From: Pseudomonadota bacterium
GTDB taxonomy: Bacteria > Pseudomonadota > Gammaproteobacteria > Acidithiobacillales > Acidithiobacillaceae
Reading direction: 5' to 3'
Assembly: GCA_021821885.1 (NCBI GenBank)
Contig: JAKARO010000003.1
Coordinates: 62,001-126,000, forward strand
DNA: 64,000 nucleotides
Part shown: positions 39,281-64,000 of the stretch, piece by piece
How the letters are laid out: each line of letters opens with the position of its first letter
How positions within the stretch are numbered: the stretch's first letter is position 1
Translations under genes and position numbers: made by a program
The notes under the pieces: model-generated
The model's input: only the letters and a program-made list of their open reading frames with translations
Databases searched by the model: none
Told to the model about the DNA's origin: nothing

Positions 39281-39550
39281 ATGGCCGGTCAGCAAAAAGG
39301 ACAGATTCTGCAGGATCCTTTCCTCAACCTCCTGCGAAAAGAGCACGTTCCGGTAGCAATTTATCTCGTGAACGGGATCAAGCTGCAGGGTTTTATTGAA
39401 TCATTTGACCAGTTTGTTGTCCTGCTGAGAAACAATGTGAGCCAGATGATCTACAAGCATGCCATATCTACCGTGGTTCCCAGCCGGGATGTGCGGCTGC
39501 CACTGCCCGAGGTGGAAGAAGGGGGAGTGGCCGAAGGGGGCGCGGACTGA
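39281..39550 (+). CDS. hfq: RNA chaperone Hfq
   Basis: Hfq is the hexameric Sm-like chaperone for small RNAs. The 89-residue product has [22 protein letters not shown] (Sm1, with the proximal-face residues), the rim region, and [12 protein letters not shown] (Sm2, with the conserved Y-K-H). The acidic C-terminal tail is short. AGAAGGAG precedes the ATG. The presence of hfq is relevant to the candidate sRNAs near 62.4 kb. Confidence 0.97.
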
Positions 39551-62363: not shown

Positions 62364-62387
62364 AAAAAAGGGGCGCAGAAACGCCCC
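62364..62387 (-). terminator. Rho-independent terminator of candidate sRNA A
   Basis: On the - strand GGGGCG (complement of 62382-62387) and CGCCCC (complement of 62370-62375) form a 6-bp GC stem with a 6-base loop, followed by six T (complement of 62364-62369). Confidence 0.85.
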
Positions 62388-62439
62388 GAAACCACAAAAG
62401 AGGAAAGAAACATGCGGTTACAGCCCTTGAAAAGCTGTA
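62364..62439 (-). ncRNA. Candidate small RNA A (anti-Shine-Dalgarno core)
   Basis: The predicted RNA is about 76 nt. It would start at or next to a 6-bp hairpin, TACAGC/GCTGTA (complement of 62419-62424 and 62434-62439). It continues through an unpaired pyrimidine-rich core (complement of 62388-62416) containing CAUGUUUCUUUCCUCUUUU, and ends in GGGGCG-TTTCTG-CGCCCC followed by six T. The core is the antisense of an SD plus AUG. A plausible promoter sits at the right distance. A homologous unit lies immediately upstream. Transcription has not been shown. Confidence 0.6.
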
Positions 62440-62444
62440 TAAGA

Positions 62445-62473
62445 ATATTAGCATAGTATTTTTCTCTGTGCAA
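62445..62473 (-). promoter_or_regulatory. Promoter of candidate sRNA A
   Basis: On the - strand TTGCAC (complement of 62468-62473) and TAATAT (complement of 62445-62450) are spaced by 17 bp, with TGC directly before the -10 as an extended -10 element. The predicted start falls at the 5' edge of the first hairpin of the RNA. Confidence 0.55.
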
Positions 62474-62491
62474 AAACATTCCGACTGGTCG

Positions 62492-62523
62492 AAAAAAAAA
62501 GGCGGATCCTCAGCGGATCCGCC
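62492..62523 (-). terminator. Rho-independent terminator of candidate sRNA B / phr
   Basis: On the - strand GGCGGATCC (complement of 62515-62523) and GGATCCGCC (complement of 62501-62509) form a perfect 9-bp stem with a 5-base loop, followed by nine T (complement of 62492-62500). It also serves as terminator for transcription coming from the photolyase gene. Confidence 0.93.
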
Positions 62524-62576
62524 CAAAACCACCAAAGGAGGAAGAAACATGCGCTCGCAACCATCACAGCTGCTTG
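62492..62576 (-). ncRNA. Candidate small RNA B (anti-Shine-Dalgarno core)
   Basis: The predicted RNA is about 85 nt. Its core (complement of 62525-62553) matches that of unit A at 24 of 29 positions and contains CAUGUUUCUUCCUCCUUU, the exact antisense of AAAGGAGG-AAGAAA-CAUG. It ends in a 9-bp perfect terminator with nine T. A -10-like TCTAAT (complement of 62583-62588) lies 7 bases before the assumed start; the -35 is poor. It could also be the 3' end of the photolyase mRNA. Confidence 0.55.
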
Positions 62577-62747
62577 CAAAGGATTAGAGACAGGGCGGCG
62601 CAAAAAGTTCCACGACCATCCGGCAGGGAGAATGTGAACAGGTGTGAATGGTCCTCTTCCGCAGCCGGGGAAGCACCCCTGGGCGGGGATTTTTCTCCTG
62701 CCCCAGGAAATGTTTTTTCCCGGGCAGCGGTAACAGGGAGCCCCATG

Positions 62748-64000
62748 CTAGCCTTCTTCTCCCCCGGGAATGGTGGAATTCCTGGACAGTTTCCTTCCCG
62801 TCCCGTTTCTGGGGGGCAGGGATTCAAAGGCAGACAGTGCTGCTTTTCTTGCTTCGCCATGGTCCGTGATCGGCCATGGATAGTCCAGGCCAAGCCGGAT
62901 ACCGGCGGCCTGGACGGCTTCTGGAGCAGTCCAGGGCTTGTGCAGCAGTGGGACCGGAAGTGCGGCAAGTTCCGGGAGCCAGCGGCGCACATACGTTCCA
63001 TCAGGGTCGAATTTTTCTGCCTGGGTCACCGGATTGAAAATCCGGAAATAGGGGGCCGCATCCGTACCACAGCCGGCTATCCACTGCCAGGATGCAGAAT
63101 TGCTGGCAGGATCGGCATCTACCAGGGTATCCAGAAACCAGGCGGCTCCCTGCTGCCAGGGGACAAGGAGATCCTTGACCAGAAAACTGGCCACAACCAT
63201 CCGTATGCGGTTATGAAGATAGCCGGTCTGCCAGAGTTCATGCATGCCTGCATCGACGATGGGATAGCCTGTTACGCCTTTCTGCCATTTGTGCAGCCCT
63301 TCCGGGTCCCTGGACCAGGGAAAATCCAGGAATTCCTTTCGCAGGGGGGTGTCCTGGAGATGGGGGAAATGGTAGAGAAGATGCCAGGAGAATTCGCGCC
63401 ACCCCAGTTCTCTCAGGAAACTGCCGGCTTGCTGCTCCAGGTGCGGATGGCGTTCCGTGAAGTCCAGCAGGCGCTGCCGTACCTGGCGTGGGCTGATTTC
63501 TCCGTGGGCCAGATGCGGGGAGAGCCGGGAGACACAGGGACGGCCGGGAAAATCGCGGCCATCGCTGTACGTGCAAAGCGCGCTCTCAAGGAATGTGTCG
63601 AGATTTTTGTGTGCACCAGATTCCCCCGGCTCCCAGAAAGACAGGAACTTGCCGGCCCAGTCAGGATGGTGGGGACACCACCCCCACAGGTCCGGGTTTT
63701 CACTTTCTGGTACCGTCGTAGGAGGAGACATCTGCGGCAGTGGAAGGGGTGTCCCGCTCCGTACCCGGTCCTGAAGTGCTTTCCAGAAAGGAGAAAATAC
63801 CTGGTAGGGCAGATCACCCTTCCGAAGCACTTCCCAAGGCTCAGCCAGGAGGTTTCCCGGAAAAGACTCTGCAGTAATACCCAGGGCGCGCAGCGCCATC
63901 TTGAGCGTCCGGTCCTGTTCCCTCGCCCGGAAAGCATAGCGACGGTTCCAGAATACCCCGGAGGCTCCCGTTTCCGCCAGCAGTTCCAGCACCGTCTGAA
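62748..64000 (-). CDS. phrB: Deoxyribodipyrimidine photolyase, 5' end outside the window
   Basis: The product is a cryptochrome/photolyase family DNA repair flavoprotein that reverses UV-induced pyrimidine dimers with light. The frame is open to the window edge, so roughly the first 70-80 residues (start of the antenna-binding Rossmann domain) are missing. The visible part starts in that domain (GVFWNRRY). It includes the FAD-binding C-terminal domain: LGWREFSWHLLYHFP, WQKGVTGYPIVDAGMHELWQTGYLHNRIRMVVASFLVKDLL, and DADPASNSASWQWIAGCGTDAAPYFRIFNP. A charged tail ends the protein. I call it class I CPD type by these motifs. Confidence 0.93.
   Translation of the reverse strand, partial: QTVLELLAETGASGVFWNRRYAFRAREQDRTLKMALRALGITAESFPGNLLAEPWEVLRKGDLPYQVFSPFWKALQDRVRSGTPLPLPQMSPPTTVPESENPDLWGWCPHHPDWAGKFLSFWEPGESGAHKNLDTFLESALCTYSDGRDFPGRPCVSRLSPHLAHGEISPRQVRQRLLDFTERHPHLEQQAGSFLRELGWREFSWHLLYHFPHLQDTPLRKEFLDFPWSRDPEGLHKWQKGVTGYPIVDAGMHELWQTGYLHNRIRMVVASFLVKDLLVPWQQGAAWFLDTLVDADPASNSASWQWIAGCGTDAAPYFRIFNPVTQAEKFDPDGTYVRRWLPELAALPVPLLHKPWTAPEAVQAAGIRLGLDYPWPITDHGEARKAALSAFESLPPRNGTGRKLSRNSTIPGGEEG

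Follow-up and report, generated by a model that had tools for sequence, protein, structure and literature searches.

A tandem pair of sibling small RNAs with a core complementary to ribosome-binding sites, probably trans-acting, in the Acidithiobacillaceae

The window, that is, the whole stretch of 64,000 nucleotides of DNA that was analyzed, comes from a genome of the family Acidithiobacillaceae (1.74 Mb, 91% complete). Two sibling units, unit B (62492..62576, ~85 nt, with its start placed by promoter distance) and unit A (62364..62439, ~76 nt, with a predicted start), lie in tandem on its minus strand, where they are matched by the covariance model R2 (see below) with 85 and 73 bits, respectively. 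On one side of the pair is a photolyase gene (62748-63992), which is its neighbor only in the window's own genus. On the other side is a conserved neighbor, an alpha/beta hydrolase gene (PF12146; 61581..62342, minus strand) that starts 21 nt past the U-run of unit A; this distance is ~2-21 nt in 20/20 genomes. In most genomes, those of the sister family included, the pair is found upstream of the hydrolase gene and then groES-groEL.

Each unit of ~75-85 nt has a short hairpin at the 5' end, then a core complementary to a ribosome-binding site (anti-RBS core), which appears largely single-stranded, and lastly a Rho-independent terminator. In unit B, the hairpin GCAGCU-GUGAU-GGUUGC (62557..62573, minus strand) belongs to the predicted fold and shows covariation across the copies of both units, the core (62524..62552, minus strand) is near-invariant in 21 genomes, and the terminator (62492..62524, minus strand) has a 10-bp stem (62524-62500) and T9. 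The corresponding parts of unit A, also on the minus strand, are a hairpin that covaries among species (62419..62439), a core identified by sequence comparison (62387..62415) and a terminator (62364..62387) with a 7-bp stem (62387-62370) and T6. The first-pass annotation of this DNA had described two minus-strand units with a common 29-nt core (24 identities) and different terminators with 6 or 9 T, and both descriptions agree with our re-reading of the sequence (24/29 identities in an ungapped comparison of the minus strand). Its claim that core B is the exact complement of an SD-AUG sequence, AAAGGAGGAAGAAACAUG, was also borne out by direct reading; on the plus strand, the sequence of core B is AAAGGAGGAAGAAACATG. 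Within the window, a 27-nt version of the core is found at cores A and B only, compared to 0 expected from dinucleotide shuffles. The core can be written as GCAUGUUUCUU(U)CCUCCUUUG(G)UGGUUUU, and the distance from the anti-SD (CCUCC) to the anti-AUG (CAU) is 7 nt in core B and 8 nt in core A, which is the spacing of real ribosome-binding sites. In both units the CU-rich anti-RBS stretch directly precedes the terminator. It should be noted that in the predicted fold of unit B the anti-SD bases are only partly unpaired, with weak CCUCC/GGUGG pairing.

The two units are preceded by promoters of different types. Upstream of unit B are a -35 element GGAACTT (62605..62611, minus strand) and, 16 nt from it, a -10 element TCTAAT (62583..62588, minus strand); GGAACTT, a spacer of exactly 16 nt and TC[TC]AA were found in 21/21 same-family genomes. 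Judged by these elements, this is a promoter of the sigmaE/AlgU (ECF) type, which was absent from the first-pass annotation. For unit A, a promoter with 17-nt spacing, an extended -10 element and a predicted start at the 5' hairpin (62439-62419) had already been proposed and was found as described. It comprises a -35 element TTGCAC (62468..62473, minus strand) and, 17 nt from it, TGC-TAATAT (62445..62453, minus strand). TTG, exactly 17 nt and TAATAT recur in 20/20 genomes, with TGC preceding in all but one, and the promoter is by its sequence of the extended -10 sigma70 type. The two different promoter types suggest that unit B is an envelope-stress RNA and unit A a housekeeping RNA. By eye, looser promoters of the GGAAC/GAACTT...TC type are seen at each of the two tandem units in the sister family.

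A search of the own genome with GGAACTT-N15-17-TCYAA returned three matches, vs. 0 for a reversed-pattern control. One site is that of unit B, one precedes a D-alanyl-D-alanine carboxypeptidase gene (PF00768) by 32 nt, and the third lies near or inside a porin-like gene. A sigmaE-type promoter is found 20-39 nt upstream of the start of the S11 D-Ala-D-Ala carboxypeptidase in seven genomes, i.e., the own genome and the six others tested. The sequence of this carboxypeptidase promoter is GGAACTT-N16-17-TCCAA (loci L145 [G000:C41:8599], L148, L149, L151, L154, L158 and L161), and it is the sole conserved sigmaE-type site that we found besides that of the sRNA. The own genome also encodes RpoE (TIGR02939 equivalog, 331 bits) and RseA, followed by a degP-like gene; no GGAACTT promoter was seen by eye in its rpoE region. 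In the relative YTS05 (G007), a GGAACTT-N17-TCTAA site lies just upstream of a tmRNA-like gene, ~6.5 kb from the sRNA pair (L165, G007:C1:1570042); this site, which overlaps with a TATAGT box, may be due to chance.

Just upstream of the -35 element of unit A, a putative operator, CGACCAGTCGG (62481..62491, minus strand), is a degenerate copy of the palindrome TCCGACCGGTCGG (TCCGACCGGTCGGA). The palindrome, TCCGACCGGTCRG, is present in 7/8 genomes searched, at this locus alone save for one extra site in G009. It lies between units B and A in most genomes (L003-L022 equivalents), and the own genome has the degenerate CGACCAGTCGG only.

The complete region was recovered by DNA searches from 21 genomes of the family, the own genome among them. 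The covariance model R2 was built on both units and has the 5' hairpin as its only structure, because the terminators were misaligned by MAFFT and were therefore missed by RNAalifold on the joint alignment. With this model, the pair was found in 27/31 genomes of the order and in 24/25 of the near-complete ones, nearly always in tandem. In the R2 search of the 31 genomes, neither unit was found in the near-complete genome G003. In A. ferrianus (L016/L179), unit B is kept, no match to the core of unit A was found and the stretch to the hydrolase gene is shorter and altered; unit A thus seems, from the sequence, to have been lost or to have decayed in this species.

The mean pairwise identity of the core is 0.97 among 21 copies of unit B, where the minimum of 0.70 is due to one copy with an extra T that was compared ungapped, and 0.99 among 20 copies of unit A. 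Unlike the core, the flanks and terminator loops vary freely. The terminator stems vary in sequence from species to species and from unit A to unit B with pairing maintained, which upholds the earlier observation that the core is kept while the stems change. In the 5' hairpin, 94.8% of cells are paired, compared to 23-54% with the partner slid; double changes are found in 4/6 pairs, and none of 500 shuffles equaled its covariation.

To assess pairing with targets, duplex energies were calculated for the start regions of SD-bearing genes, with shuffled cores that kept CCUCC as the control. For 188 genes in a 400-kb sample of the complete relative G019, core B had a duplex energy of -17.54 kcal/mol vs. 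-15.87+/-0.73 kcal/mol for the shuffled cores. Shuffles as good as the core numbered 1/60 for B and 0/60 for A in this sample, and 2/60 for B and 3/60 for A with the genes of the window. The cores therefore pair with real ribosome-binding sites better than the CCUCC-keeping shuffles do, a result that is supportive only, because the genes were called crudely. Near-full-length complementary sites were not in excess in the own genome (34 matches vs. 28 for the reversed pattern), which fits either many imperfect targets or a few undiscovered ones. Ribosome-binding sites that resemble the complement of the core were found at nifX, a phosphogluconate dehydrogenase gene and a gene for an unassigned, secreted-looking protein, all of which are candidates only. 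That the core acts on many mRNAs is plausible.

Core conservation, hairpin covariation, paired terminators and a plus strand that does not behave as codons together make a strong case for the proposal of the first-pass annotation that these are sRNAs with an anti-RBS core, and their reading as trans-acting RNAs of the Hfq type is well supported at the sequence level. We consider it quite probable that units A and B are tandem paralogous, trans-acting anti-RBS sRNAs that are assisted by Hfq, with unit B under the control of RpoE and unit A under that of the housekeeping sigma factor. A U-rich stretch before the terminator, the terminator and a U-tail are the usual layout for Hfq binding, and the sRNAs have both the U-rich stretch and the U-tail. 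Hfq itself is encoded in the window (39308..39483, plus strand, for the conserved part of the gene; TIGR02383 over its cut-off at G000:C28:101308-101481 and PF17209 with 1.5e-28) and is likely their chaperone. With Hfq, the core would base-pair with many mRNAs at their Shine-Dalgarno sequence and start codon and thereby block binding of the 30S subunit. The envelope-stress sigma factor, RpoE, would turn on unit B, which would then be functionally analogous to the noncoding arm found in the sigmaE response. Transcription of unit A would depend on the housekeeping sigma factor, and a regulator at the palindrome next to it may adjust this transcription. The same antisense activity would thus be supplied at a basal level by unit A and upon stress by unit B. 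What the two sRNAs bring about is then probably a shut-off of the translation of many mRNAs under envelope stress. No characterized base-pairing sRNA of Acidithiobacillus was found in the literature searched. If the proposal is true, the pair would represent an order-wide base-pairing sRNA of Acidithiobacillus, complete with promoter, chaperone and testable mechanism, and a noncoding arm for the sigmaE of these extreme acidophiles.

Other explanations of the locus were considered. That the conserved stretch is a ribosome-binding site and short ORF of the plus strand, encoding a peptide of the MRSQPSQLLAKD type, rather than a minus-strand RNA is hardly credible, even though AAAGGAGGAAGAAACATG with an ORF behind it looks like a textbook translation start and 'MRSQ(P)' is found repeatedly, as it must be with the core conserved. 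The frame ranges in length from 7 to 100 aa and is frameshifted between species, T-runs follow the hairpins on the minus strand only, the promoters, whose spacing is fixed, indicate the minus strand, and the hairpin covaries as an RNA. A core that was unconserved, or was conserved as plus-strand codons, had been named in advance as evidence against the sRNAs; the core proved conserved, and the plus-strand small ORF was rejected for its lack of codon conservation between species. An unlikely explanation, which draws on the gene downstream, is that unit A, and perhaps unit B, acts in cis as a leader or attenuator: transcription from the unit A promoter would mostly end at the unit A terminator and would yield the hydrolase mRNA by read-through. 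The start codon close behind the U-run of unit A in all 20 genomes and the presence of the hydrolase gene downstream of the RNAs throughout the order speak for it. Unit B, with its own promoter and a complete terminator, is not simply a leader of the hydrolase gene, and what is invariant in the RNAs is the anti-RBS core, which is neither an aptamer nor an antiterminator able to pair with the terminator; we saw no alternative pairing. The third copies that lie unlinked to the pair in two genomes of the sister family and the relatives in other surroundings elsewhere in the class (both described below) also argue against it. The two roles may be combined in unit A: given that the hydrolase gene starts within ~21 nt of its U-run, the hydrolase mRNA is probably a read-through product from the unit A promoter, by which the gene would also be fed, and unit A may be both an sRNA and a hydrolase leader.

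The RNAs could also imitate the 3' tail of 16S rRNA and serve mainly to titrate mRNAs, Hfq or another sRNA. The resemblance of the core to the anti-SD tail (CCUCCUUU), the search that gave no long specific targets and the slow growth caused by over-expressed members of the Rfam family RF02278 (PMC5688073, PMC7011215) would be in line with such a sponge or decoy. We regard it as improbable, given that conservation extends well past the anti-SD, through CAUGUUUCUU on one side and GGUGGUUU on the other, and that the anti-AUG sits at the natural spacing of 7-8 nt.

Several known sRNAs resemble the pair in one respect or another. MicA, RybB and MicL are sigmaE-dependent sRNAs of the Hfq type in enterobacteria and, like unit B, are small RNAs behind a sigmaE promoter; the promoter sequence expected of such sRNAs, GGAACTT-N15-17-TCnnA at the right distance, is found at unit B in 21/21 genomes. 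They differ in that they repress particular outer-membrane mRNAs, whereas the core found here is a near-consensus anti-RBS (their sequences were compared via Rfam only). SorY, a stress-response RNA of Rhodobacter, and mmgR are alphaproteobacterial sRNAs that likewise have a 5' hairpin, a CU-rich center and a terminator. In the comparison with Rfam, no family reached its threshold for unit A or B; SorY, RF02278 and NmsRb came nearest. The scores relative to the cut-offs were 26.9/111 bits for SorY and 21.6/41 bits for mmgR, below the cut-offs and therefore those of non-members, 25.8/52 bits for NmsRb and, for unit B, 26.2/50 bits for RF02278; no match of RF02278 to unit A was reported. Searches of the literature with words of the core sequence found nothing relevant. 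By these sequence comparisons, the family is new, being absent from Rfam, its functional kind is known, and its siblings are split between predicted sigmaE and sigma70 control.

The closest likenesses are to RNAs that act on ribosome-binding sites, among them ncS27/RF02278 (PMC5688073) and S17 (PMC11722255). RF02278, the Betaproteobacteria toxic small RNA, includes ncS27/bdhR1 from Burkholderia cenocepacia and is related to S17 of Bordetella. Like units A and B, it is a short RNA with a CU-rich anti-RBS core directly before the terminator, and it shares with them a near-100% conserved core, several siblings per genome and predicted pairing with ribosome-binding sites. In contrast, the CU-rich region of the RF02278 consensus contains a hairpin, while the core here is largely unpaired with a separate 5' hairpin upstream; the double-hairpin fold of RF02278, with the core in the first hairpin, was not found in the fold predicted here. 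Control also differs, with a sigmaE-type promoter here and responses of the Burkholderia siblings to starvation, glucose and biofilm growth (PMC5688073, PMC11722255). NmsRA and NmsRB of Neisseria (RcoF, NgncR_162/163) are likewise tandem sibling sRNAs with single-stranded anti-SD motifs and block the translation of several mRNAs by acting on their ribosome-binding sites (PMC5362039). They differ from units A and B in neighbors, sequence and control, the NmsRs being under RelA.

Members from Herbaspirillum were described as confined to beta-proteobacteria (PMC7011215). R2 also gave weak matches elsewhere in the class. These turned out to be RNAs whose core is CUCCUCCAUCCUCCUUUGGUGGUUU and whose terminator covaries, and they score up to 48.5 on RF02278. 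From these RF02278-like relatives alone, with the Acidithiobacillales left out, we built a further model, R3. In their correct structure, 91.7% of cells are paired, with double changes in 7/8 pairs. R3 works mainly as a sequence profile, and as such it matches 126/369 sampled class genomes at E<=0.001; taken in the same way, its match to unit B has 36.8 bits and a whole-genome E-value of 8.4e-7 in the own genome. Unit A scores 17.5 bits in the window and up to 30 bits in relatives. These matches make it likely that unit B and the RF02278-like RNAs share descent. Because the shared stretch is short, their likeness may instead be a convergence on the anti-SD. The Rfam family RF02278 seems to be drawn too narrowly, and the model search suggests that the 'Betaproteobacteria toxic sRNAs' are part of a much wider family. 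Such a family bears on why many bacteria retain an RNA that mimics the anti-Shine-Dalgarno sequence. We tentatively raise the possibility, speculative as it is, that the pair is the Acidithiobacillales branch of a class-wide superfamily of anti-RBS RNAs, RF02278 included, that imitate the 16S anti-SD tail, here placed under RpoE, such that stress would apply a broad brake to translation initiation rather than act on a few outer-membrane protein mRNAs.

Unlinked third copies are present in the sister family and have an intermediate core, GCTTGTTCCTTCCTCCTTTGGTGGTTT, with cytochrome-peroxidase-like and ABC-transporter-like genes as neighbors. In two sister-family genomes (L177:1490-1583 and L178:1533-1625), a promoter-like ATAAGAATATTA lies upstream of the third copy. 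An RNA with the core CTCCTCCATCCTCCTTTGGTGGTTT, mostly in a single copy, occurs in many families of the class (L058-L082, e.g., L062:1519-1572 and L066:1544-1602), often with a TTGACA-type promoter and with a covarying terminator, and scores just under the RF02278 threshold. The RF02278-like RNAs seem to have been duplicated repeatedly in the class. Two- or three-member tandem arrays of them are found at G307:C3:141781-142056, G201:C27:1131-1336, G170:C83:5201-5388, G326:C286 and G326:C107.
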